Source: Symbiodinium sp. CCMP2592 (Eukaryota > Sar > Dinophyceae > Suessiales > Symbiodiniaceae). From it: 64,000 bases of DNA. How positions within the stretch are numbered: position 1 is the stretch's first letter; each line of letters starts with the position of its first letter. Under the pieces are notes generated by a model. The model was not told the DNA's origin. It saw only the letters and a list, made by a program, of their open reading frames with translations, and did no database searches. Shown piece by piece: positions 5,918 through 61,800 of this stretch. A program made the position numbers and the translations under genes. The stretch lies in NCBI GenBank assembly GCA_905221615.1, contig CAJNDT010003979.1, positions 570,501 to 634,500 on the forward strand, given 5' to 3'.

Positions 5918-6475
5918 GTGCCACCAACCCCGATGTCACCGGTGAAGGATGCGACCTCTGCCTTCCAGAAGGACGCCTATGCCGACTTGGAGTTCACCAA
6001 CGACGTCGGCTACCTGTCGGATGGCACCCCACTTAGCAAAGCGGGCAACGCCCTCAACCACCCGGAGACGATCGGCACGGACAAGCACGTTGCTGGATCG
6101 CCACTGCCCCGTGCCAATCCCATGAATGCTGCTGGCGATGCCATCAACCACTCGGAGACGATGCAGCCGGACCCCATTATGCCCGGCTCGCCCTTGCCGC
6201 CTTCGATGCACGGCAAACAGTTCGAGCGCAGCTTCCAGAAGGACGTGTATGCCGACCAGGAGTTCTGCAACGACGTGGGCTGCTTGCCAGACGGCACTCG
6301 GCTGAATCGAGCTGGGAACGCCATCAACCAGCCGGAGAACATTGGACCGGACAGCAATGCTCCCGGATCGCCTCTGCCCCGGCCCCGTGCCATCTTCGTG
6401 AACTCCGTCGACTACCTCCCGGATGGATCTCGGCTGAATCGAGCTGGCAACGCCATCAACTATCCTGAGGCCGCA
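5918..6475 (+). CDS. Exon encoding a tandem-repeat protein (unknown function)
   Basis: A single open frame with strongly GC-rich third positions encodes about 186 residues made of four partial copies of a ~50-residue unit. The core of each unit reads like FQKDxYADxEFxND, VGYLxDGTxLxxAGNAxN, then PExIGxD and GSPLPR. Copies begin near residues 16, 66 (partial), about 105 and about 155. The frame is preceded by CAGCTTGCCTCGCTGAG, so an acceptor at 5903 or 5917 is likely, and the repeat ends at GAGGCC before GCAAGG, a possible GC donor near 6475. The frame stays open to 6616, but composition changes at the repeat end. Charged and Pro/Gly-rich; no catalytic motif. Family unknown to me, exon status likely. 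Confidence 0.6.
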
Positions 6476-44700: not shown

Positions 44701-44719
44701 GACATATAGATGTGTCGTG

Positions 44720-44805
44720 TATATTATATATATATATATATATAATATGTGTATAGAAGCATATAGACACAACCAGAAATATGTGTACCAATACATGTAT
44801 ATGTG

Positions 44806-44839
<34 letters not shown>

Positions 44840-44926
44840 TATAAGAGAGACAGAGAGAGAGATAAAGAGTTCTCTGATGCATATGCACTTATATACATGT
44901 ATATAATATGGCATATATAATGTGTG

Positions 44927-44979
<53 letters not shown>

Positions 44980-44980
44980 C
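44720..44980. repeat. (TA)n microsatellite cluster
   Basis: Three (TA)n arrays at about 44724-44744, 44805-44842 and 44931-44977, separated by GAGAGACAGAGAG and ATGTGTATA sequences. The long minus-strand frame of Ile/Tyr residues across it is a by-product. Confidence 0.95.
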
Positions 44981-45409
44981 AGTGCACTGAGTCCTTTCTC
45001 ACTTCGTGCTGGCCTGTTAACGTTGGTAGGGCAACGGTGGGAAGATGTCCTCTGCTGCATGGCTGCAGATAGGAGTATCCATAGGGTACTTCGAGCTGCT
45101 CAGATTATTGCTTGCGGCAGAGGAACAACACGGACCCTTCGCAGCCTCTGATCTGCGTCTGGAGCATAGGTGCTGTCCAGGCTTCGTGTTGAAGCCATGC
45201 GCAAATGCCGTGTCATGCCCTCAGACCGAGGATCCACCTCTGGCATGCGAGTGTCCGGATGATCTGTCTCCATGGCCAGAAGGCATGGAGTTTTGCGCAC
45301 TGAGCCGCTGAGCCAAACCAAAGCCTGGAAGGCTACAATCAAACCGGAGCCGGGCCCTTTGCGCACATGCAGAGTCGCGGAGACGTAGTAGCCTGGTCAT
45401 GCCTTTGAT

Positions 45410-45690: not shown

Positions 45691-46429
45691 AACAAGCTCA
45701 GTAGCTCTGTGGAGCTTGCGGGAGTTGTCGTTTATCAGTTCATCTAAGTAGTAGTGACCCATGTCAAAACCGTGCCGCTGACCTTATCCGGTCCTTTCGC
45801 GATAGTTGCACGGAGGACGGAGGGGGGGGCCACAGAGGCGCTTAGCAGAGCGACCCGCTCCCGAGGGCCCCTCCCCTCCCTCCTTTGGACCCCCTTCCCT
45901 CATAGGTCAATCTGTTTAAGCAGCATGGAACAACATGGCAACTGCAGGAATGACGGCATCAAGTTGCGATTGTGGGCAGTTTGTGTACTGACGTTGCTTC
46001 ACCTATGTGTATTCACGCGGGTTTAGTGCGTCGTCCCGGCAGGATTCCATCAAGAACCATGCCAAGTGCATCTGTTGTCTATGCATGTCGACCTGTGCAA
46101 GCCATGCACCGCAGCACTTGCTCGTGTATTTACGCCGCCGAGCGCCGCATCTACGTGTACATGCTTGCTCTCACCTTGCCGAGCATGCACGAAAAAACGC
46201 ACGAGATCAACTCTGCTTGGTTGGTTTGCTCTAGCTTTCGTGGGCCTCTTCTCGAGTCCTACGTAAATCAGCTCCAATCACGAGAGCCAGCTGGACTGCC
46301 AGATCTGGCAGATTTTAGGAGACAAGCACAAGTAGAGCTTCTAGCGCAGGCCTCAGCGACACGAGCACGGCATACACATACAGAATTAATTCTTGACTGC
46401 ATGGAGATCTTAACACGAAGATCATGCAA

Positions 46430-46434
46430 GAGAT
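46430..46434. repeat. Target site duplication, left copy (GAGAT)
   Basis: GAGAT directly precedes the TG of the left LTR and recurs directly after the CA of the right LTR. Five bp is the usual duplication length for copia-type integrases. Confidence 0.9.
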
Positions 46435-46586
46435 TGTAGATTTTACCCTGCCTCCATTGCTATTTCTATGGTCCTTAGCTATGTCTTTACGCGACCGCAC
46501 TTGGCCCAAGTCCCCCGTGGAAAAAGGTCACAAGGGTTGACTGACCGGTAACTAGACGTGCCAAGCTGGTAGCCTGGGAAACTTCA
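46435..46586 (+). repeat. 5' LTR, 152 bp
   Basis: Begins TGTAGATTTTACCC and ends GGGAAACTTCA (TG...CA). By eye it is identical over all 152 bp to 58698-58849. No TATA box is obvious, and dinoflagellate promoters usually lack one. Confidence 0.97.
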
Positions 46587-46604
46587 GGTTATCAGCCGTA
46601 GTTA
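46587..46604 (+). other. Putative primer binding site
   Basis: The leader directly after the LTR starts GGTTATCAGCCGTAG and does not begin with the TGG expected for pairing to a tRNA 3' CCA end. Its complement contains GG-CTGATAA-CC, which fits a tRNA anticodon loop with anticodon GAU. Copia and Ty5 prime from half-tRNAs cut in the anticodon loop, so a half-tRNA primer is possible. The leader is only 26 bp long. Confidence 0.4.
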
Positions 46605-46612
46605 GCTCCGTA

Positions 46613-49600
46613 ATGGACATCGTGCCGTTCTCAACGGCCACGGGCAACAACGGTGACGGTGGTATTGGTGGTAGACAGGAGCAGGAAGCGAACCAGTACT
46701 TCTTGCATTTGTTGCAGGAGAATACTCAGGTGAACTTGTTCCTGAATGACCCCCGCATTCAAAGTGCCCTGGAGCTTCGTGCGGAACAACGACATCGATT
46801 TGCATTGGACAACGTGTACGCCGAAGCCAACGCATACATTGCACACCTAGAGGCAACAGCGGATGCGAATCATCGTCAACAGCTAGCATTTGTGAGCCAA
46901 TCCACACACCTGTTGGTGGGACAGCTACACAATGAAGTACGAGTGCTAGAGACAATCGCCCGATCAGAACGACAATCAGCCAATGAGCTGCAGGCACAGC
47001 TGGCACGCGCACAAAGGGAAAGTCATGATGAAAGGTCTATGGCCATGCAGTTTGATGCACATCGATCCGAGCTGGAAGCAGCAGCGCGCACGCTCACTGC
47101 GGAAAACAGACAGCATGAACGCCGTTTCGCGGAATTGCGCTCGAGTATCGAAGAAAACCACAGTGAGATGATTGCCTTTTTAGGGTCTGAGTTTGAGGAA
47201 AAGCTTCAATGGGAAGAAAACGAGTACTACCATAGGCTAACCTCTGAGGCACAGCAGTATGATAGCTTGGTTGATGACCTGCAGGACAGGAACGCGGAGC
47301 TTATAGCTGAGGTCGACTCACTCAGGACTGTCTTGTCGACAGCGGAGAGTAGCCCACCGCAAGGTGGTGCCGTGCCGGTGAAAGTCGATCCCAGTGAGAG
47401 CTCCAAACTTCAACCAAGCCCACCGCAAGGTGGTGCCGCAGCGCCGCTTGTTCAGGGTCCTAGCCATTCATGGATTCCGACCCTTCCGAACCCCAGGGAG
47501 ATTCCTGTGTCGCTTCGGACGGTTTTGGGAAGGACCCAACGGTATGACATTGGAGAGCCTGAGGATACCAAGGCCCACAATGTAGCGGTATCTGCTGCTG
47601 AACAGAGTGATAACAAAGAACCGGCAGAATCTACTGAAAACAAAGAGCCTAGCGTACTTCTCGCTGAAGCACTCAAGTCGGTTATCCAGAAGCCTGATGA
47701 TGACAAACCCAAGGCTAAGGAAGCTGAAACGGTGAAGCTACCCGACTTCCCTAACCCGGAGACTTATAGGAGCTGGAAGATCACGGTTAGGGAGGCCGTT
47801 CGGGCAGCATCGGACAGACCCGATGAAGCATTCAAATGGGTTCAAGAGGTTTACTCCAGGGACGCCGATGCGGAGAAGTTGAGGGACACGGGTAAATTCC
47901 TCACTTTGGACACGAAGATTCTTTCGGCGCTCTCGAGGGTTGCTAGGGGTGATCTTGGACGACAGATCATTAACTACAAGGAGTCTGAGGCAGCTGCTGG
48001 TAGGGCCGTTCGTGGTAGACAGGTTCTACTGATGTTCGAACACTACTTTAAGACCAACGAAGAAGCAGGCTCCCTCTACTCTGTAGAAGATCTTCTCAAG
48101 GTGCAGTTGAATGGCGATGACCTTAGCACTTTCATTCACAACTGGGAGTCGGTCATCGCGGGGTTGAATCACCAACCCGAGGAGACTACGCTGAGAGATA
48201 TTCTACTTCGTCAGCTTCGCAATGCTAGCAAGCTCAAGTTTGATCTGGAGGTTTACGACAGGGCTAAGGAAGGAACAGAGCAACGCACTTATGACTACTT
48301 GGTCAAATGCGTGAAAGAGCTATTGGCTAGAGATAGGACTCGCAAAAACCGCACAGCAATCGCCAAAGCTCATGGCGCCAGATTTGGTGCCCCTGCTCCT
48401 TCCGATACCCCGAACACCCCTCGCGGCCGAAGCCAGGACAAGCCCTGCTACGCTTTCCAGCGTGGGAAGTGCCCACGAGGTGATAAGTGCCCATACAAGC
48501 ATGTGAAGCCTACTCCTGAACAGACAAGGGGCAGAACACCTCCACGTACCCCTTCGAGAAAAGGTGGAGGTAAAGGCGGTAAAGGTGGGGAGAAGAAGGA
48601 TACCTCCAAGATTCCTTGCATCTTCTACCCCAAAGGCACCTGCAAGAACGGTAAGAATTGCCCATTCATGCACAAGGATGCCGCTCCCTCTGTCCCGGCC
48701 AAAGGCGATAAGGCTGGCAAGGACGGGAAGAGATCGCCCTCCGGCAAGCGCAGGCGACCCAGTAAGAAAAGGCCAAAGAGTGAGGACAAGCCAGCCGCTT
48801 GCTGTCTTTCCCTCACAGCCACCCTCACAGGTGAGCCACCGGCCGATGCTGTGAAGGCCTACGCAGTAGCAGCCCGCAAGGGCCCTGCCGGAAAGCCCCG
48901 AAGCAGGAAAGTCCAGTTCCTAAGGCCAGAAATCATTGACATCCCGCCTGAGGGTGAAGGCTGGAGCTTCGTACCAGACAAGCACAAGTTCGAATTCAGG
49001 TACAAGTCTGCGGAGCTATGCCCACCATCTATTCCAGAGGACACCGAAGAAGCTTTGCAGAATGCCCGTCACTTGGAATCAGCAGTGAACGGGATGAAGC
49101 TTAAGGTTCGGGTCAAGTGTAACTACAGGTGTCGGGGTAGAGAAGGATTCTGCATTCATTGCAAAGAAGCAATTCCCCTGCCCCAACTTGCTGCAGCGGC
49201 GGTGACAGGTGAGAACCTCGAAATCATCGCAGACACCGGTAGCGAGGAAGATCTGATTAGTCACTCTGATTTGGAGGCCCATTTCAAGGGCAAGGCTAAG
49301 AAGATTGCTTCCAACCCAGTGAGTTTGATCACTGCTAACGGACCAGTAGACGCTGATACCAAGCATGAAGTCTACATTGAGTCATTGAGGAACCCATTGC
49401 AGTTCGTTGAGCTCCCCAACACACCTGCAGTTTGCTCTGTAGGAAAGAAGTGCATGGAACAGGGGTTCTCTTTCCACTGGCCAGCGGGCGAGGCGCCATA
49501 TTTCATTTGCCCAGACGGTCAGAAGATGATTTGCCAACTCCGAGGCAATGTCCCCGTATTTGGCGACCGAGGACCATTGATGGCATGCTTAGCAGCAAAG

Positions 49601-49666
49601 TCCTCAGAATCTGATGGCAGCAAGGTTGCACCGACCTCTGTCAAGTCCGGTTCGGGTTTTCGGTAA
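46613..49666 (+). CDS. gag: Gag-protease polyprotein (ORF1), 1017 aa
   Basis: Capsid and protease precursor of the retrotransposon. The start is the first ATG, 26 bp after the LTR. Residues ~55-250 form a long helical/coiled-coil region (QLARAQRESHDERSMAM). Two sets of PPQGGA at ~249 and ~271 are encoded by hairpins. Residues ~375-590 are the copia Gag core (LPDFPNPETYRSWKITV; LLMFEHYFKTNEEAGS). Two CCCH fingers follow: C612-x7-C620-x5-C626-x3-H630 and C669-x7-C677-x5-C683-x3-H687, separated by a Gly/Lys-rich linker. They replace the CCHC knuckle usual in Gag and suggest RNA binding. A Cys-rich patch (CRGREGFCIHC) precedes the aspartic protease motif DTGSEEDLIS at D874. Ends TAA, but a slippery heptamer two codons earlier can redirect ribosomes into ORF2. 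Confidence 0.92.
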   Translation: MDIVPFSTATGNNGDGGIGGRQEQEANQYFLHLLQENTQVNLFLNDPRIQSALELRAEQRHRFALDNVYAEANAYIAHLEATADANHRQQLAFVSQSTHLLVGQLHNEVRVLETIARSERQSANELQAQLARAQRESHDERSMAMQFDAHRSELEAAARTLTAENRQHERRFAELRSSIEENHSEMIAFLGSEFEEKLQWEENEYYHRLTSEAQQYDSLVDDLQDRNAELIAEVDSLRTVLSTAESSPPQGGAVPVKVDPSESSKLQPSPPQGGAAAPLVQGPSHSWIPTLPNPREIPVSLRTVLGRTQRYDIGEPEDTKAHNVAVSAAEQSDNKEPAESTENKEPSVLLAEALKSVIQKPDDDKPKAKEAETVKLPDFPNPETYRSWKITVREAVRAASDRPDEAFKWVQEVYSRDADAEKLRDTGKFLTLDTKILSALSRVARGDLGRQIINYKESEAAAGRAVRGRQVLLMFEHYFKTNEEAGSLYSVEDLLKVQLNGDDLSTFIHNWESVIAGLNHQPEETTLRDILLRQLRNASKLKFDLEVYDRAKEGTEQRTYDYLVKCVKELLARDRTRKNRTAIAKAHGARFGAPAPSDTPNTPRGRSQDKPCYAFQRGKCPRGDKCPYKHVKPTPEQTRGRTPPRTPSRKGGGKGGKGGEKKDTSKIPCIFYPKGTCKNGKNCPFMHKDAAPSVPAKGDKAGKDGKRSPSGKRRRPSKKRPKSEDKPAACCLSLTATLTGEPPADAVKAYAVAARKGPAGKPRSRKVQFLRPEIIDIPPEGEGWSFVPDKHKFEFRYKSAELCPPSIPEDTEEALQNARHLESAVNGMKLKVRVKCNYRCRGREGFCIHCKEAIPLPQLAAAAVTGENLEIIADTGSEEDLISHSDLEAHFKGKAKKIASNPVSLITANGPVDADTKHEVYIESLRNPLQFVELPNTPAVCSVGKKCMEQGFSFHWPAGEAPYFICPDGQKMICQLRGNVPVFGDRGPLMACLAAKSSESDGSKVAPTSVKSGSGFR
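47352..47371 (+). other. GNRA hairpin 1
   Basis: GC + CCACC + GCAA + GGTGG + T + GCC. Stem of 5 bp extended by GC/GC across one bulged base. Codon phase 1, encodes PPQGGA. Confidence 0.8.
47418..47437 (+). other. GNRA hairpin 2
   Basis: Same 20 bases as hairpin 1, 66 bp downstream; phase 1. Confidence 0.8.
48818..48837 (+). other. Decayed hairpin (copy 15)
   Basis: GC + CACCC + TCAC + AGGTG + A + GCC, one stem mismatch next to an altered loop; phase 0, encodes ATLTGEP, parallel to ATREGEP at hairpin 11. Confidence 0.5.
48869..48889 (+). other. GNRA hairpin 3 (imperfect)
   Basis: GCCC-GCAA-GGGC with a GCA/TGC extension after a 2-base bulge; phase 0, encodes AARKGPA. Confidence 0.65.
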
Positions 49667-49688
49667 ACAGCTGCCCGCAAGGGCACGC
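49654..49688 (+). promoter_or_regulatory. Putative -1 ribosomal frameshift signal between gag-pro and pol
   Basis: The heptamer GGGTTTT (49654-49660) lies in the ORF1 frame as G GGT TTT, the canonical X XXY YYZ arrangement, two codons before the ORF1 stop. A spacer of 9 nt (49661-49669) is followed by the hairpin GC-TGCCC-GCAA-GGGCA-c-GC (49670-49688). The -1 frame has a TGA upstream near 49612 and is open from there through all of ORF2. A slip would give a Gag-Pro-Pol fusion of about 3,978 residues. An alternative outer stem AGCTG/CAGCT (49669-49673 with 49694-49698) also exists. Confidence 0.7.
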
Positions 49689-49689
49689 C
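49670..49689 (+). other. GNRA hairpin 4, in the ORF1/ORF2 junction
   Basis: GC + TGCCC + GCAA + GGGCA + C + GCC. It follows the ORF1 stop, is read in the -1 frame only, and forms the downstream structure of the frameshift signal. Confidence 0.8.
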
Positions 49690-49761
49690 GCACCAGCTAG
49701 GGGAGAACACGAACATGAACCTGAAGGTCCAGCTGGCGCGGCAGAAGATCCCATCGAAAAG

Positions 49762-52700
49762 ATGGCGAATTGCATTCCTCCCATTCCTGGGGTGGAAACG
49801 AGGCAACTGCTAAAGGCAGGTTGGACTGTCATCAACGGCAGCCCCGCTGCTAAGGTGGCACATTTCCCAAAGACGTTTCGAACACCGGCTCCTAAGTTCC
49901 CGAGGTATAGAATCCGGACTACTTGGGGATTCAAGGATGACGTGTGGTCTTTGTTGGAGGATTCAGTCAACATTGACGAATTGGACGGAATCTATGGGGA
50001 AGTACCTGAAGGGACTATTGCGACTATCACATTGTTTGCTTTGCCTGAAGGGGAAGTTGAGGCGCAAGCCGACAGCGATGTCGAGCCATACACAATGCCA
50101 AAGTCTAAGAAGGATGAAGCTTCCTTGAGGGCTGAGGCTGTGTCTTTGGAACATCGACTTACCCATAGACCAAAGAATCCGTTCTGTCCCATTTGCCAAA
50201 GGGCCAAGATGTATGCGCCCCAGGCGCGTAAATCTGGTGGATCCTCTACAATCTACAGTAAATCGTTCGGTGACCACATCACAGTAGATCACATCGTGAC
50301 CGCTGATGCCAAGGATTACGGGTTCCAAGATGAAACCGTGGCTCATGTTGTGAAGGACGTGTATTCTAAGTTTAGATACGTGTACCCTTCCAAGACAAAG
50401 TCTGGTGAGCAGTGCTACGAAGACATGTTGCACTTCCTTGGTACAGATGATGAGGTAAAGGTTATATATTCCGACAATGCGTTGGAGTTTGACTTTGCGG
50501 CCAGACAGCTTCGCGCTCGTCACAACACTTCTAGAGAGTATGTGAACGAAAACAAGGCCGTAATCGAGCGAGAAATCAGAACAATTTTGGAAGGCACACG
50601 GGCCAATCTAGTGCAATCAGGACTTCCAGATCGCTATTGGCCTCTTGCATCGCAACATCATGCTATGTGTCTTAACATCACTGCGAGGATTGACAATGGT
50701 CAGATTCCGTGGGAAATCAGGTACGGTGAAAAGTTCAACGGCATGCGCATCCCCTTTGGAGCGAAAGTCCTCTACTGGGCCCCGAAGAAGCAACGCAAGC
50801 CTGAACGATCCAAGTTTGCTGGCACAGGGATTGAAGGTATATTCCTTGGGTACCACATCCAACCTGGTTTTATCTTCAAGCTTGAGTACGTTGTTGCTCC
50901 CCTACACAACATCGAAGCCGCGTTGGAAAACGAAGACCTACGTGTGTTTCGGACTAAGAGACTGGAGCTACCAGATGGTGACTTTAAGTTTCCTTTGTTG
51001 CAAGAGCCTGCCTTGGATAAACCACCAAACCTTGATGCACAACATCACAATGTCCTTGATGAGCAAAACCCGCATCCTCCTCTGGAGGAAGGGGGGGGAT
51101 ACGATGAAGCCGCAATTCAGGAACAACTTAGCGAAGATCTGGATGAAATGTTCCCAGAGCTATTTGGTCCTGATCGTGATAAAGATCCTCCGCCGAAGGA
51201 CGCGAAAGAAGCCACCCGCAAGGGTGAGTCAAAGTCTGATTCCCGTGCAGCATTGCTTGATGATGTTCCGTTCTCTGTGAAGCAGAAGCTGAAGTCCAGC
51301 GCAGCAGTAGCAGCGCAAGAACCACCGTATGGTTATACGTGGAGTGGGGAATGTTTGGTCAAGAAGAACAACAAGAACCGCCCTAACGCTATTGATCATA
51401 CTGCATGGAAGGCTATGTCGAAAAGACAAAGAGCAACAGCAATTGCAGAACATGAGAAGAAGCTACATGAGGAGAATGAGGCACTGTATCGTGAAGCTGT
51501 AAAGGCGGTACCTGCAATGCCAGTCCTACATGGGTGTAGCGAGGAACATCGGGAACGACTCAAAGGGCTATATGACAAGAAGCTTTTTCAGATCGCAGAT
51601 GAGATGTATGCTGTTGTCGCCAAGGTCCTGTCGTCTAAGGAGATTGCAACAAACCCTAAGGCGCAGGCTGCCATGGACAAAGAATGGCAGAAATTGGTTG
51701 ACAAGGGCTGCTGGGTACAAGGCAAAGTCAGGGAGTTCGAGTCGGTTGCCAACGAAGCTAAGAAATCTCAAACCAAGGTTCACTTTGGCAATGTTTTCGA
51801 GATTGGTACCCTAAAGGGAGCCGAGCTGAAAGAAGGCGACCCCAACCGTAAGTATAAGGGACGTTCGGTATTTCAGGGAAATAAAGTACTTGATGAAAAC
51901 GCCGATCACGCGCTCTTTGCGGAGATGTCAAGCAGTCCTGCATCTATGGAAGCAGGAAAGATTCTTGACGTCTTTGGCTCACAACCTGGCTACATCATCC
52001 AGCAGGCCGACGCCAAGCAAGCATACACCCAAGCTTTGTTCCAAGGGGTTGCCACTTGGGTACGGTTGCCTCGCAATCGCTGGCCTAAGGCATGGCAGGG
52101 CATGAAAGATCCTGTTGTTCCACTCAAGTTGGCACTTTACGGACACCCCGATTCAGGGGGGATTTGGGAACATCATTGCGAAGCTGAGTTGAAGAAAGTC
52201 GGGTTCGAGGCAGTATTGACTGACATTTGGAAGAGTGTATTCTACCACCCGAAGAAGAAGCTGCTTTTAGTGGTGTACGTCGATGACTTTAAACTCGCTG
52301 GCCCTAAGAACTCTATCAAGGAGGGATGGGACTTGATCTCGAGCGTCATTGATATGGATCTTCCGGAAGCCATTGGTAGATACTTTGGGTGCATGCACAA
52401 GGAAGAACACAACCTCAAGCTGCCCAAGGAAGCACACCCTTTTCGTCACGTGTTTGAGCCCGAATCATCAGCTGCAACTCCTGCTAGAAAAGAAGACTAT
52501 TGGGACATTGACCCCGAGAATCTCATAGCAATCCGACATCACCGTTATCCTCGCAAAAGACTTTATGTCCCCAACGAGGATGATGCTAGAATGTTCCCGG
52601 GGATCGGCCCTCGGAGATACACTGTGGTGGCGAAAGCCACCCGCAAGGGTGAGTCGGAGGAAGTTGTTGTTGACAGTTGCAATCAAATGCGCGATCGCTG

Positions 52701-55700
52701 TCTTCAGGATTGGTGGGACGGCGAAACCTACTTCGACCTCGCAGGCCGGGAACAGTCTGATTTCGAGCTGGCAGTTGCAGCTGCCCGCAAGGGCAAGCCG
52801 GTTCGTAACAAGTCTGAGGCTAAAAAGGAGGCGAAGCAGAGCAAGTTTGTTACACTGTCGCAAGACGTTAAAGAGAAGCCCGGCGCGATGACCAAGCCAG
52901 TCACTCGCATCACGTACGATATGAAGGACTTTCTCGACTCTTGCGTTGATCGGTACTGCGAGCTTGCTAAGGTAGAGCGTAAGACCCTGAAACCAGCTGC
53001 AACCCCCTTCCATGAGCTACGTGTGGCTTTGCCAACAGCTTCCGAAGGAGAGAAGGCAGGGCGTTTGCAACCTATTGCTAGTAAGGTACTAATGAAGATT
53101 TTGTTCGCTGCTCGCATGGCCAGATGGGACCTTCTAAGGGCAACACAGTCTTTAGCGTCGAGGGTGACCAAGTGGAGCCCAGATTGCGACTTGGGACTTC
53201 ACAGGTTGGTTTGCTACATCAACTCTTCGCTTGATGTCACTATGAGCGGTTTCATAGGCGACAGCATAATGGATTGCAGACTGTGGTTGTTCAGCGATTC
53301 CGACTTTGCGGGTGAATTCGATTCAAAATCGACTACAGGATGTGCGATGTTTTTGGTTGGACCGAACACGTACTTTCCCCTCAATGCCTTCAGCAAGAAA
53401 CAAACATCTATTACAATGAGCTCTACTGAGTCCGAAGTTGTAGCAGCGAATCACGGTTTACGTGCCGAAGGTCTACCTTGCCTGAGCTTGTGGTATTTCC
53501 TATGGCGTGGAGATGCCGGCCGCAAGGCCGAGCCAAGGGCTGAGAGGGTGGATTCGATAGTTGCACGCATTGACCCTGAACTTGACGAAATTCGTTATGG
53601 GTCCACTAGACCGGATGGATTGTCAATCGCAGACATCAACGGCCTCTGTGTCCAGCTTCCTGAAAGTTTCGAGGTTAGACATATGGAGGATAACCAGGCG
53701 ACAATCACTCTTTTGTTGCTAGGGCAAGCTGGTGTTCTACGACATACTGATCGGACACAGAGGGTGAGTTTCTCATGGCTAAAGCAGCAATATGAGGTTG
53801 GGCATTTCAAGTTACTGAATGTTGGTACAGCCGAACAAGTGGCGGATGTGTTCACGAAGCCTTTCACTGAAAAGAACAAGTGGACGCATGCCTTGAAGCT
53901 TATTGGACATACATCCAGCGCGAACATAGCCGGGTGCAAACCCGAGTCGAAGGTCGAGGTTGACAACAAGGTTTCGGTAGCAGCAGCTCCGGATGCATCA
54001 AAGGTTGTCGAGGACTTCGCTCAACAATCGTTCGAGGCTAACGATTACAGCTTCAAGACCTTCGAAAAGCTAGCTGGGCTTATTCGTACCAATCTCAAGG
54101 CATCATTGGCAAAACCGCGAGCATTGATGGCTTCTGAGAACCCATCCAAATACTTGGTGTTCGGCGCTTGGGTCCATGGTGGGTGCTTTGGTATTACCAA
54201 CCGCACAAAACATTATCCATGGATTTGCAGGTATGTGAATGGATTTGTTAAGCAATCATCTCCGAAAGGGTTTACATGGACTTCGTTCGTGTTCAACTTC
54301 AATGGCAAGGCCCGCATCCACACGGATAAGTACAATCAGAAAGAATCGTACAACCTGACGTTCTCCTTCGGTAATTATACAGGGGGGACACTGTGGATTG
54401 AGGGCGCGAGCCAGTTGGGACCACCGGGAATATACACAGATGATCATGGCAAAGACCACAAAGGCTACAATTGCAACACATACCGCAAGCCCACTCTGTT
54501 GCATCCATCGACAAAACATGGTGTACAACCCTACACTGGCGAACGACATTCCTTCATCGCCTACTCTTCAGGGGGGTACCAGAAGTTCAACAAAAAGCAA
54601 AAACAATTCCTACATCAAGCGCAGTTCCTCTTGCCTACGGCTCAGTTGAAGCTCCCAGCTCAGAATGCAATGGTTTGTTTGAGGTGTGTTGGTTCCCCTC
54701 TCGATGAGGGGGGTAGGCTTAACAAACCGTGTTCTCGTTTCGAAAATGATTCGTTTGCACACACATCGCTCGAGTGCACAAACACACAACAAACTGCAAG
54801 CCTTGACCATGAAATCTTGGCTTTCTTTATGTGCACGCCTGCCATTGCAATTTCAGCTGGTTCTGATCTTCTCGACTTGCCCGAAGCGACTTCTACGATC
54901 CCCAAGATGGCAGCCATCGTTGTGAGCGACGAGTTCTGCAGGGTCAACACCTCCGAAGCAGACAGGAATGGGGTTACCAAGGCCATGAAAACCATTCTCC
55001 AATCCGCCGCCCTCAACAACGATATCATTTCGCTCGGCGCCGATCATGAGAGCCAACTCTTGGAGTCGGCGTACAGCTGCGTATCCACACAGTGCGCGGC
55101 TGGGGTATCCTTGACCCATGCCGACGCAACCACTGTGGCTCTGCGCCAGATGGCTGACCTCAGTGACGAGGGACTCGCCAAGTTGAAGCCAACCGCAAGG
55201 TTGAGCCCCAAGGCCAAGCGAGCCATCATAGTCGTGTCAGACAGCTCCACTGCACTTTGCAAGAAGAACAGGCGGGGAGTGTTCGTTAAGGCCGACTTGG
55301 ATGCGGAAGTGAACATCGCAAGCTTTACGCTGGGATGGGCGCAGACTCGCTATACCATGTGTTGGGGTAAAACCTTGGCGTGGATTGTCTGGCAGGTCGA
55401 GGAGCATGTGAAGGAGCTCAGGAGCAACTATCCGGACCACACCATCGACATAATCTGCTGGTGGTGCGGGAACGAGATCTCCGGCCAGTGGGGCTGCATC
55501 CCCACGCGGCTAGGACCGGGACTCGCCTACAGAGATCCCAATGTCACAACGGAGACCGTCGCACGGAAAGTGAGAAGGGCAGCGGATGTTTTAGCCGCCC
55601 TCGCGGGCGAGCCGGACATTGGTTTTGTGAAGGTGATTGGGCAGGTGGAGGCGGACTTGTTCCAACTCCACTCAGCCTATAACGACTTCAATGCCGCTAT

Positions 55701-58548
55701 GTTCGAAGAGTTCAGGCAGCGCGGTCTGCAAGTGCAAACCGCAAGCTCCTTGGTCGAAAAGCTGGAAATGTATGACAGCTTTCACGCCAGCGAAGACCCT
55801 CGCAACCGCGAGTTATTCCAGACCTACTTGCATGCGACCATCAATGCAAGCAGGAGCGAATGGCTTGCCCAGAAGATGGCACCCTGTGTCAGGGCTTTGC
55901 TTGTTCGCTATGAGCACTTTGAGACTGGCTCCGATGCCAACAATCCAGTGCTCGAGGATGTCTTCAAGCAGTGGCGTGCAGAGAAGGACCAGCTGATGAA
56001 CCCGAAACAGGCCAAGCCAATGCCGGTCACCCAGGAGGACAAGATGTGGGAAGCCCCAGATGCCGCTGACGCAATCGACGTCAATAAGATCTCCGAGGGG
56101 CCACCCATGGATAAAGCCATCCGCAAGGATGTGCCAAGGATCGGTGCAACCACGGACGTTAGTGCTGTGGCGGAATGCGTCCATGACATCGTTACCCAGG
56201 ACGCAGACGGCAAGGTGTCCTACAACACCCCGGGCACGGTGGAGCTGGTGGACGAGGGCGACCAGATCGACCCTATCCCCTCATCGATTGGACGTGTTGT
56301 TGAGCCAGCGCCTCCGAAGAAGACTAAGAAGTCTGATCGAGACGAGGATGCCATGCGCAGGCTCATGTTCATCGATGAAAGCGCCCCGCAAGGGGCTGCC
56401 ACTGTGCCAGAGCTTCCAAATGAGTACTTCTACAATGGCAAGAAGCACTTGATGAAGCCCTTCAACCCGGAGGACATCGTAGGAGACAGGCACGTGACAT
56501 TCAAACACGGAGACCTGAAGTTTCTCACCAAGCTGCTGCGTGGCCATGAAATGGACAGCTTCCCTTCATTGATCTTTGACCGTGGGTGCTGGACAGACGT
56601 TGACACTCTGCTCCAGGTCTTCAACACGGCACGAGGCGCACGCTGGGGTGTGAGGCAGCTGCTACGCGCAGCGAAAGCCGATAATAAGGGACGGATCAGA
56701 CTTTTGGGTATTGACGTGCCAATGAAGGACACCCTGGGTCAACCGCTATTCCCTGTCAGAGTGAGGATGGCCCAAGGGCATAACTCCAAGCTCATCGGCA
56801 ATAACCCGGACGCGGACTTCTTCCTCGCGACCAGGTTCTACAGCGGATTGTCCGAGTACGAGGCCGACCTGCAGAGCAGCGTCAGGGGGGTCACTGTGCT
56901 CTCCCGCGAGGATACCCCCCCAAAGCTCTTCCACCGCACGAATGAAAAGGGAATGAAGGGTATCCTCCGCGATGGAATGATCGCTGGCTCCGCGAGGTCA
57001 GACAGGTCCCACAACTACCTGTCCCCGTACAAGTTGGACGACACCCACTACAAGAGTGGAATGCGCTCCAACCAGCCGATCGAGTTGACGATAGACACGC
57101 AGCGAGCAATCGCCGCTGGATGCGTTTTCTTCGTCACGGAGACCGACGGCGTCCTCACACGGGACAATGTGCCTCCCGATTGCGTGCTTTCCGCCGTCGA
57201 CACCAGCAAAAAGAACCTCCCGCTCTACGTCGCCGAGCACAAAGAAGCCGCCCGCGAGGGTGAGCCAGAGCGCATTTTCCGCGCAAAGCGCGACTATGAG
57301 GAGGCCGCAGCAGCAAGCTCATCATCGGCACCGCCCCCAAAACAGGCGGCTATCGCTCCCAAAGCGATTGCTTCAAAGAAGATGCCGAAGGTGGTTCCCA
57401 AGCCCGCCGCAATCGCCGAAAAGGACGAAAGCATGGACTTGGATGAAGCCACCCGCGAGGGTGAGCCTGCTGATGCTGCTGGTGCATTCGACCTTGACGA
57501 AACCAAGGTTGAGGTTGAGGTCGAAGTCGATGAAGGCGATACAACGGATGCGGGTGAGGATGAGCCGTACCCACTTGGCTCTCACCCATGCCGAGAGTGC
57601 GCAGCAGTCGTTGCCAATGGCATGCTGTTCTGCCTCCGTTGCAAGGCTCCCCAAACGGATGACTCCAAGAAAATCACAAAGCGAGTCTTTGAGAATTCGA
57701 GACTCCGCCAGCGCCTTCTTGCCACCGCTGCGACCGGAGCCCAGAAGCCCATCGATGATCTCCTCGCGAGTGACCTTCGAGGCCTGGGCGAGGGACCAAA
57801 GAAGCGTGGTCAGATGAGCGCGGAGGCCGCCGCCATTCGTGACGCCAAAGACCGAAAGATCAGGGCCGCCAAGTTGAACTTTGACACCGTGTCCGACCGC
57901 TTCGAGAAGGACGCGCAGTTCAACGTGAGGATGATGCAAGAGGGCCGCAGCCTTGAGGACATGCAGAAATTCGATCACCTGTCGAACGCTGTGCTTCCCG
58001 ATCCAGGACGCAGTGAGGAGCAGCGCTACTTGCGTGCTGGCTCCCATTATGGTGGTGGCAATGTCCCGCCTGCGAAGCTGGTCTATTATGCCCACTGCGA
58101 AGTGGAGCCGTTGAGGAACTTGCGGTTTATCGATGATACCGCGGATGTCCCCATCGGCTTGACCTACCTCGGTGCATTCCTCCCTCCGCGACTCTATGCT
58201 GAGGTGGCAGCGGTGAACGATGCTGCGAAAAGGATCCTGACTTTCGACGGCGAAGTCTATGTGTCGGCTACCACAATTGAAGGCATCACAACTGAGATCG
58301 GACAGATTCTTACCGATAGCCTCCGTAGTGCTCAGGACCAGACAGCCCAAACGGAACGTCTGGCAGAGCGCAATCGCCAGGCTGCAGTCCAGAACCGCCC
58401 ATCCCAAAAGGGACGTGGTCGCACGACAGCACCTGAGCCCATGTACAGAGGCTATACTCAGGCCCAGTGGGACGAGTACTATCGCCAGCGTCGTGGAGGT
58501 TACACTCAGGCCGAGTGGGATGCATGGAACCGCACCCATAGGCGCTGA
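49762..58548 (+). CDS. pol: Pol polyprotein (ORF2): integrase, RT, RNase H, 2OG oxygenase-like, Tpt1-like, zinc ribbon; 2928 aa
   Basis: First ATG is 49762, but the frame is open upstream across the ORF1 stop, so translation by -1 frameshift from 49660 is likely. Integrase: H131-x3-H135-x6-C142-x2-C145, then D176, D238 and E269 (VIER). Reverse transcriptase ~640-960: D750 (QADAKQAYTQA) and YVDD at 839-842. RNase H: D1179 (SDSDFAGE), E1223 (STESE), D1310 and D1362 (VADVFTK). Canonical copia Pol would end near 1385. Beyond it: ~1440-1610 an HxD...H...R oxygenase fold (H1520, D1522, H1586, R1595); ~1790-2020 a region with SDSST, CGNE and D1965-x4-H1970; ~2240-2490 a Tpt1/KptA-like domain (R2260, R2335-x4-H2340, H2391-R-T, SGMR2435, VLTRDNVPPD); a C2610-x2-C-x10-C-x2-C2627 zinc ribbon; a C-terminal double YTQAxWDxxxR motif. 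Most copia Pol proteins lack all of these extras. Confidence 0.93.
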   Translation: MANCIPPIPGVETRQLLKAGWTVINGSPAAKVAHFPKTFRTPAPKFPRYRIRTTWGFKDDVWSLLEDSVNIDELDGIYGEVPEGTIATITLFALPEGEVEAQADSDVEPYTMPKSKKDEASLRAEAVSLEHRLTHRPKNPFCPICQRAKMYAPQARKSGGSSTIYSKSFGDHITVDHIVTADAKDYGFQDETVAHVVKDVYSKFRYVYPSKTKSGEQCYEDMLHFLGTDDEVKVIYSDNALEFDFAARQLRARHNTSREYVNENKAVIEREIRTILEGTRANLVQSGLPDRYWPLASQHHAMCLNITARIDNGQIPWEIRYGEKFNGMRIPFGAKVLYWAPKKQRKPERSKFAGTGIEGIFLGYHIQPGFIFKLEYVVAPLHNIEAALENEDLRVFRTKRLELPDGDFKFPLLQEPALDKPPNLDAQHHNVLDEQNPHPPLEEGGGYDEAAIQEQLSEDLDEMFPELFGPDRDKDPPPKDAKEATRKGESKSDSRAALLDDVPFSVKQKLKSSAAVAAQEPPYGYTWSGECLVKKNNKNRPNAIDHTAWKAMSKRQRATAIAEHEKKLHEENEALYREAVKAVPAMPVLHGCSEEHRERLKGLYDKKLFQIADEMYAVVAKVLSSKEIATNPKAQAAMDKEWQKLVDKGCWVQGKVREFESVANEAKKSQTKVHFGNVFEIGTLKGAELKEGDPNRKYKGRSVFQGNKVLDENADHALFAEMSSSPASMEAGKILDVFGSQPGYIIQQADAKQAYTQALFQGVATWVRLPRNRWPKAWQGMKDPVVPLKLALYGHPDSGGIWEHHCEAELKKVGFEAVLTDIWKSVFYHPKKKLLLVVYVDDFKLAGPKNSIKEGWDLISSVIDMDLPEAIGRYFGCMHKEEHNLKLPKEAHPFRHVFEPESSAATPARKEDYWDIDPENLIAIRHHRYPRKRLYVPNEDDARMFPGIGPRRYTVVAKATRKGESEEVVVDSCNQMRDRCLQDWWDGETYFDLAGREQSDFELAVAAARKGKPVRNKSEAKKEAKQSKFVTLSQDVKEKPGAMTKPVTRITYDMKDFLDSCVDRYCELAKVERKTLKPAATPFHELRVALPTASEGEKAGRLQPIASKVLMKILFAARMARWDLLRATQSLASRVTKWSPDCDLGLHRLVCYINSSLDVTMSGFIGDSIMDCRLWLFSDSDFAGEFDSKSTTGCAMFLVGPNTYFPLNAFSKKQTSITMSSTESEVVAANHGLRAEGLPCLSLWYFLWRGDAGRKAEPRAERVDSIVARIDPELDEIRYGSTRPDGLSIADINGLCVQLPESFEVRHMEDNQATITLLLLGQAGVLRHTDRTQRVSFSWLKQQYEVGHFKLLNVGTAEQVADVFTKPFTEKNKWTHALKLIGHTSSANIAGCKPESKVEVDNKVSVAAAPDASKVVEDFAQQSFEANDYSFKTFEKLAGLIRTNLKASLAKPRALMASENPSKYLVFGAWVHGGCFGITNRTKHYPWICRYVNGFVKQSSPKGFTWTSFVFNFNGKARIHTDKYNQKESYNLTFSFGNYTGGTLWIEGASQLGPPGIYTDDHGKDHKGYNCNTYRKPTLLHPSTKHGVQPYTGERHSFIAYSSGGYQKFNKKQKQFLHQAQFLLPTAQLKLPAQNAMVCLRCVGSPLDEGGRLNKPCSRFENDSFAHTSLECTNTQQTASLDHEILAFFMCTPAIAISAGSDLLDLPEATSTIPKMAAIVVSDEFCRVNTSEADRNGVTKAMKTILQSAALNNDIISLGADHESQLLESAYSCVSTQCAAGVSLTHADATTVALRQMADLSDEGLAKLKPTARLSPKAKRAIIVVSDSSTALCKKNRRGVFVKADLDAEVNIASFTLGWAQTRYTMCWGKTLAWIVWQVEEHVKELRSNYPDHTIDIICWWCGNEISGQWGCIPTRLGPGLAYRDPNVTTETVARKVRRAADVLAALAGEPDIGFVKVIGQVEADLFQLHSAYNDFNAAMFEEFRQRGLQVQTASSLVEKLEMYDSFHASEDPRNRELFQTYLHATINASRSEWLAQKMAPCVRALLVRYEHFETGSDANNPVLEDVFKQWRAEKDQLMNPKQAKPMPVTQEDKMWEAPDAADAIDVNKISEGPPMDKAIRKDVPRIGATTDVSAVAECVHDIVTQDADGKVSYNTPGTVELVDEGDQIDPIPSSIGRVVEPAPPKKTKKSDRDEDAMRRLMFIDESAPQGAATVPELPNEYFYNGKKHLMKPFNPEDIVGDRHVTFKHGDLKFLTKLLRGHEMDSFPSLIFDRGCWTDVDTLLQVFNTARGARWGVRQLLRAAKADNKGRIRLLGIDVPMKDTLGQPLFPVRVRMAQGHNSKLIGNNPDADFFLATRFYSGLSEYEADLQSSVRGVTVLSREDTPPKLFHRTNEKGMKGILRDGMIAGSARSDRSHNYLSPYKLDDTHYKSGMRSNQPIELTIDTQRAIAAGCVFFVTETDGVLTRDNVPPDCVLSAVDTSKKNLPLYVAEHKEAAREGEPERIFRAKRDYEEAAAASSSSAPPPKQAAIAPKAIASKKMPKVVPKPAAIAEKDESMDLDEATREGEPADAAGAFDLDETKVEVEVEVDEGDTTDAGEDEPYPLGSHPCRECAAVVANGMLFCLRCKAPQTDDSKKITKRVFENSRLRQRLLATAATGAQKPIDDLLASDLRGLGEGPKKRGQMSAEAAAIRDAKDRKIRAAKLNFDTVSDRFEKDAQFNVRMMQEGRSLEDMQKFDHLSNAVLPDPGRSEEQRYLRAGSHYGGGNVPPAKLVYYAHCEVEPLRNLRFIDDTADVPIGLTYLGAFLPPRLYAEVAAVNDAAKRILTFDGEVYVSATTIEGITTEIGQILTDSLRSAQDQTAQTERLAERNRQAAVQNRPSQKGRGRTTAPEPMYRGYTQAQWDEYYRQRRGGYTQAEWDAWNRTHRR
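51211..51230 (+). other. GNRA hairpin 5
   Basis: GC + CACCC + GCAA + GGGTG + A + GTC; phase 0, encodes ATRKGES. Confidence 0.8.
52636..52655 (+). other. GNRA hairpin 6
   Basis: Identical 20 bases to hairpin 5; phase 0, encodes ATRKGES between RT and RNase H. Confidence 0.8.
52780..52799 (+). other. GNRA hairpin 7
   Basis: GC + TGCCC + GCAA + GGGCA + A + GCC; phase 0, encodes AARKGKP. Confidence 0.8.
53515..53534 (+). other. GNRA hairpin 8
   Basis: GC + CGGCC + GCAA + GGCCG + A + GCC; phase 0, inside RNase H, encodes AGRKAEP. Confidence 0.8.
55188..55207 (+). other. GNRA hairpin 14
   Basis: GC + CAACC + GCAA + GGTTG + A + GCC; phase 2, encodes KPTARLS, a different peptide from the other copies. 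Confidence 0.8.
55594..55613 (+). other. Hairpin 12, loop TCGC
   Basis: GC + CGCCC + TCGC + GGGCG + A + GCC; phase 0, encodes ALAGEP. The loop is not GNRA on this strand (it is GCGA on the other), but stem, bulge and ends match the family. Confidence 0.7.
56116..56135 (+). other. GNRA hairpin 13
   Basis: GC + CATCC + GCAA + GGATG + T + GCC; phase 0, encodes AIRKDVP. Confidence 0.8.
56381..56400 (+). other. GNRA hairpin 9
   Basis: GC + GCCCC + GCAA + GGGGC + T + GCC; phase 1, encodes APQGAA. Confidence 0.8.
57247..57266 (+). other. GNRA hairpin 10
   Basis: GC + CGCCC + GCGA + GGGTG + A + GCC, with one G-U pair; phase 0, encodes AAREGEP. Confidence 0.75.
57448..57467 (+). other. GNRA hairpin 11
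   Basis: GC + CACCC + GCGA + GGGTG + A + GCC; phase 0, encodes ATREGEP. Confidence 0.8.
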
Positions 58549-58686
58549 GTCCTCATTCTGATTTGCTTCGGACCTGCAGGGCTTCCCCGTTGTGCTTTAT
58601 AAATGCTCGCTTTGGCAAATTCCCAAATCCGTTGAAGCCCAGGGCAACCTGGAGCCATGTACTATCCGCCTTAGCTCGAGCAGCAC

Positions 58687-58697
58687 GGCGAGGGGGG
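58687..58697 (+). other. Polypurine tract
   Basis: GGCGAGGGGGG lies immediately upstream of the right LTR, the expected place for plus-strand priming. The 150 bp between the ORF2 stop and this tract show no gene. Confidence 0.85.
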
Positions 58698-58849
58698 TGT
58701 AGATTTTACCCTGCCTCCATTGCTATTTCTATGGTCCTTAGCTATGTCTTTACGCGACCGCACTTGGCCCAAGTCCCCCGTGGAAAAAGGTCACAAGGGT
58801 TGACTGACCGGTAACTAGACGTGCCAAGCTGGTAGCCTGGGAAACTTCA
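58698..58849 (+). repeat. 3' LTR, 152 bp
   Basis: Identical by eye to the 5' LTR at 46435-46586, with the same TG...CA ends. Confidence 0.97.
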
Positions 58850-58854
58850 GAGAT
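58850..58854. repeat. Target site duplication, right copy (GAGAT)
   Basis: Follows the CA of the 3' LTR and matches 46430-46434. The empty site would read ...CATGCAA-GAGAT-CACCCGCC... Confidence 0.9.
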
Positions 58855-61800
58855 CACCCGCCAGAATCTTTCTCATGCGTGAACGTGGATTCGAGGGCAA
58901 GCATCATAGAGACGAATGGCCTGCGTGATTCTCAAAAAGGGAGACGTCGGAGGCATGGATAAAAGTAAGCGATTTTGGCTGCACGACGGCCACAACGACA
59001 ACCAGCCCCAAATGAAGAACTTCTGATTGGGTTGTTTACGAAAGTCATAGATGCTTGTACGGAGTAGACCAACGGGGTCGATGCGTCCAACATCAAGACA
59101 ATCAAGACAGCTGCTGCCGAGTAGTGCGGATGCAGTGCCAAAGACATCAACACTTCGATTATGACAGTCGTGCGCATCAGATCGGAGGCTCGTGCCACAG
59201 TAGCCGGAGGCCGTGCAGTTGACCATAAATTCGTAACTAAGATAAACGCTTGCTGCTTGTCCTGTGACGCCGGCAGGATGCTTCAATCCCATGACATTCA
59301 CACTCTTCCTGCGATTTGGTTGAGAGCAAGTTGAGGTTATCAGCAACGACGGGCCCGAGCAGGTGCAACACTCTTTGCATTCAGAGGAAAACCCTGCGGC
59401 TCCGAGCCGCTCGTGGCGGCGATCCGTGCCGAAGGAAGGCAGCTGGTACTGCGAAGAGGGCTATGGTGGAGTTCCTCAGGCGCAACAGTCGCATAAACGG
59501 GACCCAGGTGGGCATTCGTTGTGTGTGCTGGTGCGCCGTTGACGCTGGATGCCAGCCGGAGCTCATGTTTGAGGTGGCTTTACAGTTTGCCAGAGCGCGC
59601 GAGCTTCCCGGGTACATGCTTGTGGGAGTCATCTTTCTTTAGCATCACTATAGCCAAAGCTCTCCTTCTCTTGCAGGGACGGATTCGTGTTTCTTTATAC
59701 CAGTTACCAGCACCAAAGCTCTTGCAGGGATGCGCAACTCTGCAAACCTGCAAGTCCGAGCCTCACTTCAGCTCGCGAAAAACTGCTTTGCTCAGAGCAA
59801 ACCGGGCTCAAACAAAAGGCCGATGAACCTCACGACGATTCAGTGCCAGTATGCGTGAGACTTAGAGCTGCGCTTGCAGCTGCCGTAGATCTGCCTTTCT
59901 GTCGTGCTGCTAGTGGCGATTGTGCATAGCGGCATAGCAGTCGTGCTAGTGGATTGTGCATTGCATGCCGAGGACATCTCGAACTGCACTTCGCGGCTGG
60001 CTGGGGGTGAGACCTGCGAGGTGCGGCGAATGCTCCACCTGCCTACTGGTGCTATTTGTTATTATAGCTCTTGGTGCCATGGCACTTGGCTCCTTTTCGA
60101 AGCTTTCGTCTTTTCGCTCCACCGATCTCCTCACCGGCCGAATTACGGATTGGGAATGGGCAAAGACTTTTCGTCCACAGGTCGAGACTCAGACTCAGCA
60201 TCGCAGAACATAATGCTGGGCAGCTTAGATGACGCAGCAGGTTCTTTGCAGGCTCCCAGCTGTTGGAGACGGTGTCATTGCGTATTGGCCTGACGACAAC
60301 ACAGCCTCGCACTCAAGTGGACAGAGGACCATCTCGCAAAAAATTGCACAGTTCCTGGCAAGTCAGACAGTCGAGGTTCCTGAGCAAGAGCTGATGGCAC
60401 GAATCTCAGCAGGCAGAATGTGACAAGCAACGCAACCGAGTAGCGAGACTACGATCCGAACAATGCTGCAGTCTACAAACTAATTTATTTTCGCGAGACT
60501 AGTAGATGCTACGAGGAGAGCTCCTCATCGCCCTTCTCCACTTGAATTAAGGCGGCAGAACTCGACCCTTTGACTGGAGGGACGATTTATCGGCTCTGAG
60601 CTCAAAAGGGCTCGGGCTGTGGCTTCCCCTTCAAGACAGGTTGGTTTTTGATGATTCTGCTTCTCTTGACGCTCTGTTGCCAGGCCATTTCAGTTTCCCT
60701 TGGTGCGAGACTCCATCATTCTGCGCGGATCCGGATCCTCTACCTCCTGGCTACGTCAGGCGGACCTCGCCAGCCATATGGCCATGACATCTTTTCACCT
60801 GATGCACGCCATCTGTTGAAATCTGCTCGGTGTCCTTTCGCTTTTCCTTTCTGTGCAATCTCATTGTGGGAGTGACAATCGCGAGGACCGGAACAGAAGG
60901 TGGAACAGCTGAGGAGAATTAGGTGCTCGAAGCTCAGCCTCCGGCAGCGTGATGCCACATGCTTCGGGTGCAAACGGCTATTCCGCATCACCGCGAGTCA
61001 AACGGACTTGTGCCATTCGGACTTGCGTTGGCGGTCGTTTCACACCTGTTCTTGTTCGCTTAGCTTAAGATTCTTCTCAGCTCTCTTCTGCCTTGCGATG
61101 TCGTGTTCTTGTTTTCGATGCCAGTCAGACGTCAGATGTCGGCCGAGGTAATGTCGAACACATCTGATCCGCTGGCGGCGCCTGACTCCCAGCAGGTGTT
61201 GACGGGCGTATCTCAGAGCCGTGCCTCACTCAGGCGTGAACTGCAGTGGAATTGACGAGCGCATGATCGACACTTGCCGTCGCATGCTTAGACTCAGTGG
61301 GAAAGATAAATGTTCGAGCCGTCAGTTCTGCTACGTCTCTCCATCTCTGGGCTGTCCGAGGATACGACGTCTCCAATTGTCCCGAATTCTTTGACCCAGG
61401 AAGCACATGCGAGGCTGGGCAGGGCACTGCCGGCGCCAAAGGATTGGGCTGGAAACCTGGAAACGGGCTGTGGCGGCTAGCTATCTGGCTTTTTGCAGGT
61501 TTCCTGTCGAGAGCCCTTCTACATCGGCACCGGTGCAGCTTTGGCGACCTGCCCCAGCGTCCGACGCTCAGGGCAGAGCAGCAAACAGGTGCTGCAGACC
61601 TCCAGCCTTCATGCCGGCAACGCGGTGCATGCTTTAAGCCCCAGGACAACACAGACCCAGAGAAGCAAATCGAGTTTCCTGCGGACTTGGTATGTGATAC
61701 ACTCAGCAGTCAGAGCTGTGCTAATTGCCTGAATTCGCATTGTGGTGCGGAGGGACAGATCACATTGTAGAGCGAGAACGAAATGGCTCTTGAAGGCATT

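Follow-up and report, generated by a model that had tools for sequence, protein, structure and literature searches.

The window analysed here is a 64-kb stretch of Symbiodinium DNA. On its + strand lies a 12.4-kb LTR retrotransposon that bears all of the hairpins described below, and its assignment to the Ty1/copia type is based on the LTRs, a short target duplication and a reverse transcriptase of the RVT_2 type. The main features of the element, in window coordinates, are as follows.

46435..58850, + strand: Ty1/copia-type LTR retrotransposon with hairpins (153-nt identical repeats, termini TG...CA, GAGAT target duplication on both sides, RVT_2 match)
46435..46587, + strand: 5' LTR, direct repeat
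46613..49666, + strand: ORF1, gag-like (predicted start); two CCCH zinc fingers, then a basic K/R-rich stretch
49762..58548, + strand: ORF2, pol-like (predicted start); RVT_2 reverse transcriptase and, downstream, an RNA 2'-phosphotransferase (Tpt1/KptA) domain
58698..58850, + strand: 3' LTR, direct repeat; G-rich tract immediately upstream

Because the two LTRs are 100% identical to each other, the element probably inserted recently. Only 25 nt separate the 5' LTR from the predicted start of ORF1. The basic stretch of ORF1, which follows the second CCCH finger, is conserved, also in relatives. Upstream of the 3' LTR, the G-rich tract is, as judged by eye, likely the polypurine tract. HHCC-like and DDE-like stretches can be seen by eye ahead of the RVT_2 match, and no Pfam integrase match was obtained at 1e-3. 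The C-terminal half of ORF2 is 97% identical over its whole length to P0021, a protein of Symbiodinium sp. CCMP2592, to which the nearest relatives with a name belong.

Some further observations concern ORF2 and the surroundings of the element. The Tpt1/KptA domain (PF01885, E 7e-12; window 56518-57162) is also listed for many relatives, and to our knowledge such a domain is unusual in a copia element. Between reverse transcriptase/RNase H and KptA (window 53959-55791), two stretches resemble by eye a 2-oxoglutarate oxygenase (HxD...H) and an SGNH-like fold; a Pfam search of these stretches returned no credible match. Four gene models of CCMP2592 (P0014, P0023, P0030 and P0037), called Wrn, pntA, Mettl21e and NLRC3, include retrotransposon parts, and these names may be misleading. 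Upstream of the element, long (TA)n-rich stretches form inverted repeats (window 44699-44994), and an ORF on the + strand at window 5918-6616 contains several copies of a peptide repeat resembling, by eye, DVGCLPDGTRLNRAGNAINQPE.

A family of nineteen hairpins

An initial annotation of this DNA had reported a family of GNRA-tetraloop hairpins with at least fourteen copies, plus one decayed copy, embedded in the coding sequence of a retrotransposon between 47352 and 57467. We searched both strands of the 64-kb window for GC-N5-GC(A/G)A-N'5-n-G(C/T)C with a perfect 5-bp stem, and found 15 units on the + strand, none on the - strand and none outside the element. Together with four variant units (48818, 48869, 55594 and 57247) the family has 19 members, more than had been reported. 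In the following list they are given by stem (5' half) and loop, with coding phase where the unit is coding; all units other than the four variants come from the strict search.

47352..47371, + strand: hairpin CCACC, loop GCAA; phase 1
47418..47437, + strand: hairpin CCACC, loop GCAA; phase 1
48818..48837, + strand: variant hairpin CACCC, loop UCAC, closing C-A mismatch; peptide ATLTGEP, recurrent among relatives
48869..48888, + strand: imperfect hairpin AGCCC, loop GCAA, one mismatch; AARKGEP here in some relatives
49670..49689, + strand: hairpin UGCCC, loop GCAA; non-coding, immediately past the ORF1 stop
50068..50087, + strand: hairpin CGACA, loop GCGA; phase 0
51211..51230, + strand: hairpin CACCC, loop GCAA; phase 0
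52636..52655, + strand: hairpin CACCC, loop GCAA; phase 0; clean 6-residue gap in P0052, P0061 and P0067
52780..52799, + strand: hairpin UGCCC, loop GCAA; phase 0
53515..53534, + strand: hairpin CGGCC, loop GCAA; phase 0
53929..53948, + strand: hairpin CGGGU, loop GCAA; phase 0
55188..55207, + strand: hairpin CAACC, loop GCAA; phase 2; KPTARLSP kept in relatives
55594..55613, + strand: hairpin CGCCC, loop UCGC, perfect stem; phase 0; R-K (GCAA-type) peptide here in some relatives
56116..56135, + strand: hairpin CAUCC, loop GCAA; phase 0
56381..56400, + strand: hairpin GCCCC, loop GCAA; phase 1
57247..57266, + strand: hairpin CGCCC, loop GCGA, stem including one G-U pair; phase 0; peptides of relatives here of the R-(K/E) or the L-(A/T) type
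57448..57467, + strand: hairpin CACCC, loop GCGA; phase 0; peptide conserved although the linker around it varies
58090..58109, + strand: hairpin CCACU, loop GCGA; phase 0; AHCEVEP conserved
58637..58656, + strand: hairpin CCAGG, loop GCAA; non-coding, 3' untranslated region

Each unit has a tetraloop on a 5-bp stem of free sequence, and on the 3' side a single base bulges out before the G-C/C-G foot. The loop is GCAA in 13 units and GCGA in four, so that 17 of the 19 have the GNRA form, and UCGC or UCAC in the remaining two; the second loop base is C in every unit. Nine of the 19 units were folded singly, and all nine adopt the same hairpin, with 7 bp and a single bulged base on the 3' side. 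When unit 55594 was folded, 25 of 200 shuffles were at least as good. Both ORFs contain units, as do the interval between the ORFs and the 3' untranslated region, and the array spans 11 kb; the genomic RNA of this element thus shows a series of hairpins that share one loop type, which is one mark of dispersed packaging signals. Unit spacing was not significantly more even than random (P 0.08; two variant units were placed 1-4 bases off in this test, which is immaterial to spacing). Rfam covariance models gave no match up to E 1 in 46000-59500, so that the hairpins are not assigned to any RNA family known there.

The initial description is therefore right in its essentials and too narrow in several respects. 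The family is present in the range given and extends beyond it, to 58090 and 58637. Stems are indeed varied and paired, and the list of them lacked CGACA, CGGGT, CCACT and CCAGG (in DNA letters). A position within coding sequence applies to 17 of the 19 units, the exceptions being 49670 and 58637, and the coding units do use phases 0, 1 and 2 (for two variant units, phase 0 was worked out by hand).

Chance, composition and peptide

Dinucleotide shuffling of the element, repeated 200 times, never produced a strict unit. Codons were also shuffled synonymously, with the protein held fixed; 1000 such shuffles gave a mean of 0.04 units and a maximum of 1, as compared to the 13 observed in the two ORFs. 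The hairpins are therefore not accounted for by the encoded peptide, as had been argued from the start. Since the strict search itself demands pairing, a search without this demand provides a less circular check. Scanning the whole window for GC-N5-(GCAA, GCGA or TCGC)-N5-n-GCC yielded 17 matches, all on the + strand, with 14 inside the element and three outside. Inside, 13 matches pair at 5 of 5 positions and one at 4 of 5; the three outside pair at 0, 1 and 1 positions. We also counted hairpins with any loop (5 bp, 4 nt) in the element and found 22, against 12.6 (sd 3.8) in shuffles; 15 of these 22 have GCAA or GCGA loops.

The simplest alternative would be that the array reflects chance, composition or repeated peptide modules. 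Peptides resembling ATRKGE do recur, and counts are inflated when the proteins compared are related. Chance and composition are ruled out by the two kinds of shuffle together with the pairing found where none was demanded, and peptide-level selection alone by the synonymous shuffles, the use of three phases and the two non-coding units, and we consider the probability of this alternative to be negligible.

An alignment of the 19 units shows 97.0% of pair cells paired against 72.2% when shuffled (0 of 500 shuffles reached the observed value), both sides changed in 29 cells against 6.6 (0/500), a covariation score of 0.657 against 0.162 (0/500), five pairs with change on both sides against 2.8 (13/500), and 13 further pair types against 8.9 (2/500). 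Because 17 of the 19 aligned units were chosen for pairing at 4-5 of 5 positions, and all are copies within one element, these statistics describe the variety of the stems; they are less a test or a record of substitution history. In a covariance model built from the same units, the training units match by construction (E <= 1.3e-4), and the informative part is the lack of others in the window, where nothing else scores better than E 0.35. The model and the strict search thus both uphold, for the 64-kb window, the earlier remark that no copy was seen outside the element.

In viral contigs, the exact pattern was found in one contig (L001, of which 501 bases were examined) and a looser pattern in ten. 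Among these 11 loci, three (L001, L003 and L006) have one perfect unit each, and none has an array; we take these hairpins as chance rather than as related arrays, as they are single units only.

Conservation, codon use and loop ends in relatives

No DNA of relatives turned up in the viral contigs or genome contigs searched. Relatives were compared as proteins, and stems and synonymous changes in them are judged from codon compatibility, i.e. from whether codons can exist that would make a given peptide a perfect unit. In 141 related proteins, summed over four groups, there are 366 hairpin-compatible sites in the sense direction and 18 in the antisense direction (the reverse complement of the motif), while three locally shuffled protein sets had 16, 25 and 20 sense-compatible sites; as the proteins are related to each other, the site counts overstate independence. 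Sixteen near-identical proteins contribute 183 of the 366 sense sites and no antisense site. The other 125 proteins, including a few close CCMP2592 copies, have 183 sense and 18 antisense sites.

Evidence for pairing comes from 93 unique contexts that fit A-x-R-(K/E)-y-z-(P/S), gathered with no demand placed on x and y. In 85 of them x and y can be reverse-complement codons, whereas 2000 permutations of y gave 47.7 on average and never more than 58; the remaining eight are not complementary. The commonest x-y pairs are T-G (37) and A-G (21), and the most telling ones are I-D (11), G-A (3), D-V (2) and single cases of H-V, N-V and L-E. The second loop base can be read from relatives in one phase only, and there Q (GCAA) occurs 30 times against 5 in one shuffle, while K (GAAA; 5 versus 2) and E (GGAA; 8 versus 8) are much less or not enriched. 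Combined with the C found at this place in all 19 units, this rules out a generic GNRA loop and suggests that the fixed C is a base read by a partner. As a separate observation, the Gag of another subfamily has a recurrent peptide, A-T/P-P-K-G-Q-P, in 14 of the 141 proteins (P0098, P0100, P0102 and 11 more), at residues 179-343 in 12 of them and at 424 and 624 in the other two; judging by its sequence, a related hairpin, with CNAA as the loop, could be encoded there.

A second kind of coordinated change concerns the two ends of the loop. Among unique contexts with complementary x and y, 59 are of the R-(K/E) type, which needs a G..A loop, and 26 of the L-(A/T) type, which needs U..C (17 L-T, compatible with UNAC, and nine L-A, compatible with UNGC; three of the 26, ACLAAKS twice and AGLTTEP, look like chance). 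Mixed forms are nearly missing, with one R-(A/T), as R-T, and no L-(K/E); a Fisher value for this coupling ignores the relatedness of the proteins. Further contexts have other residues (six with R and four with L), and R-Q, which breaks the GNRA form, is seen at a unit in P0005 and P0066. Both loop types occur at three homologous sites, namely 55594, 57247 and 48818. According to published descriptions, UNAC loops mimic GNRA loops, with a U-C pair as the 1-4 contact (PMC5311481), and GNRA-like loops include UMAC, among them phage boxB (PMC12550061). The UCAC loop of unit 48818 fits the UNAC form. This unit had been called decayed, and its closing pair is indeed mismatched, but its peptide recurs in relatives. 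The UCGC loop of unit 55594, with G as its third base, does not fall within the published UNAC form. A swap between G..A and U..C would keep the loop fold and would be hard to explain except at the RNA level, and since UNAC loops mimic the GNRA fold, the coupled loop ends indicate selection on RNA.

This coupling also bears on a function at the DNA level, in which enzymes of the element, or chromatin, would read a cruciform or a hairpin formed by one strand of the cDNA. The sequence is palindromic as DNA, and DNA forms of the GNRA-like motif are described (PMC12550061); however, the units are restricted to the sense strand (15 versus 0) and the swap from G..A to U..C fits RNA tetraloop geometry, and we regard a DNA-level role as very improbable.

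Lastly, we compared the conservation of hairpin peptides with that of the 15 residues on each side, using 20 aligned relatives with coverage varying by site. Of the 13 ORF2 sites, 12 could be scored (50068 is unscored), and in 10 of the 12 the hairpin peptide is above its flanks, e.g. 0.86 versus 0.26 at 57448, 0.85 versus 0.53 at 58090, 0.75 versus 0.42 at 56116, 0.78 versus 0.54 at 56381 and 0.88 versus 0.66 at 55188. The two exceptions are 52636 (0.10 versus 0.40) and 52780 (0.69 versus 0.72). Many hairpin sites are maintained in relatives of about 55% identity. Site 52636 has six residues that are cleanly absent from P0052, P0061 and P0067, pointing to gain or loss of units, and its unit is identical to 51211 over 20 nt. 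In P0094 and P0103, hairpin-compatible peptides are found at private sites and at the very end of ORF1; this ORF1-end peptide is present in two of 23 relatives checked and absent from 21, and in the present element a unit lies just past the stop. At the site of 57448, P0055 reads ATREGREGEP, as if the hairpin were partly duplicated.

Turnover of this kind would be expected of a tiny mobile hairpin of about 18-21 nt, able to spread through the element by self-copying and tolerated in the reading frame, an explanation already entertained in the initial annotation. The clean difference at 52636, the 20-nt identity with 51211 and the private-site units, such as those of P0094 and P0103, speak for it. 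On the other hand, persistence at about 55% identity, with 10 of 12 scored sites better conserved than their flanks, and the upkeep of complementary codons and coupled loop ends after arrival speak against it. Within the window no copy lies outside the element. Mobility may explain gain but not upkeep; it can be at most part of the answer, and as the whole explanation we find it improbable.

A putative protein reader and comparison with known systems

Selection at the level of the hairpin is well supported, in this element and, at the codon level, in its relatives. The synonymous shuffles, the pairing found without demand, the complementary codons, the coupled loops, the non-coding members and the 10 of 12 conserved sites agree on this, and the original suggestion of selection or spread at the hairpin level has held up; as possible roles it had named packaging, tetraloop-receptor contacts, translation control and a mobile hairpin, with no choice among them. 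A stem that varies freely while loop, bulge and foot stay fixed is what a protein-binding hairpin would show, and the invariant C at the second loop position would favour recognition by a protein over generic GNRA docking. We therefore propose that a single hairpin, repeated about nineteen times along the RNA of the element, may serve as a protein-binding site; its loop has the form (G/U)-C-R-(A/C) in the GNRA fold, and a G-C/C-G foot follows the bulged base. The binding protein would read loop, bulge and foot rather than the sequence of the stem, and for this reason stems could drift by paired changes and loops could switch between GCRA and UCRC.

As to the reader, the main rival explanation is a host protein, acting in export, stability, localisation or translation control, for which the element would have accumulated sites in order to exploit it. 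The structural evidence (shuffles, unforced pairing, codons of the relatives and coupled loops) serves a host reader equally well, and as units lie in each ORF, in the interval separating the ORFs and further down in the 3' untranslated region, a full-length transcript carries them. Against it, the other 51.6 kb of the window contain no copy and give no sign of host use, although a window of this size is too small to settle the matter. We consider a host reader unlikely, albeit less so than the alternatives above.

The element's own Gag appears to us the most likely reader, through its two CCCH fingers and the adjacent basic stretch. We favour Gag because the RNA of a retrotransposon must be selected for packaging, because the 25 nt before ORF1 leave little room for the usual leader packaging signal, because ORF1 has CCCH fingers and a basic stretch, and because the array spans most of the RNA. 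With many such sites along its length, the full-length RNA would be picked out for packaging, and the sites would also nucleate the assembly of particles. Binding by CCCH fingers is mostly to single-stranded RNA, which counts against a CCCH Gag as reader of a hairpin. On balance, we put dispersed protein-binding hairpins that act most likely as Gag-binding packaging signals at close to an even chance, the protein reader, Gag as its identity and packaging as its result being successive steps of one proposal. A broader version is offered somewhat more tentatively: a clade of dinoflagellate LTR retrotransposons may have evolved a genome-long, sequence-degenerate RNA code, in which about nineteen hairpins of GNRA fold or UNRC fold are read by the element's own CCCH-type Gag and replace the leader packaging signal. 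In this version, further copies would arise at fresh sites, after which paired changes would maintain their stems, and coordinated swaps of the two loop ends would maintain the fold of the loop.

The array is of interest in several ways. The repeated unit is recognisable from sequence alone, complementary changes are seen between copies and between relatives, and the loop swap fits known tetraloop chemistry. The element could serve as a natural test bed for the question of whether a genome can be chosen for assembly through a large number of small hairpins, and hairpin and CCCH fingers together form a candidate for a new RNA-protein recognition pair. The array further illustrates how selection on RNA structure can write recurrent peptides into unrelated places in proteins, by which annotation can be misled.

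Phage boxB is read by the basic N peptide and acts in antitermination at nut sites, unlike the role proposed for the present array; in the present element, a basic K/R-rich stretch sits in ORF1 after the second CCCH finger. The two hairpins are alike in having a short stem and a GNRA-fold loop. For boxB, both GNRA-like and UMAC forms are named (PMC12550061).

The proposed mode of packaging resembles that of RNA viruses with multi-hairpin packaging signals in coding regions. Such dispersed signals are debated; each site is weak and hard to prove. In most alphaviruses, packaging makes use of 4-6 stem-loops in nsP1 whose loops have GGG at the base (PMC8233893). There, too, several stem-loops with a common loop feature lie in a coding region, where their role is in genome selection (PMC8233893), but they occupy one region of an RNA virus, whereas the present units extend over 11 kb of an LTR retrotransposon and have another loop and a bulge.

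Among retroelements, retroviral nucleocapsid zinc knuckles read exposed bases of psi hairpin tetraloops (PMC7599994). The likeness lies in an LTR retroelement whose Gag has zinc-binding domains, the reading of hairpins by Gag being putative in our case; retroviral psi, in contrast, sits in the 5' leader, where CCHC knuckles read it, rather than being dispersed as an array with CCCH fingers in Gag. Fungal GalEa copia elements, which lack a primer binding site, have a Conserved Hairpin Site directly after the 5' LTR (PMC5445492). This is again a conserved hairpin within copia-type elements, but a single one of unrelated sequence at a fixed place.

In the literature on dinoflagellate and Symbiodiniaceae repeats, hairpins and copia elements, and on dispersed packaging hairpins in retrotransposons, none of the matches listed, which mostly exclude subscription papers, describes an array of this kind; the main text of two dinoflagellate papers (PMC5890265 and PMC3229502) does not contain the word hairpin. 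Dispersed protein-binding RNA hairpins are known as a kind, and their putative occurrence in an LTR retrotransposon would be new.
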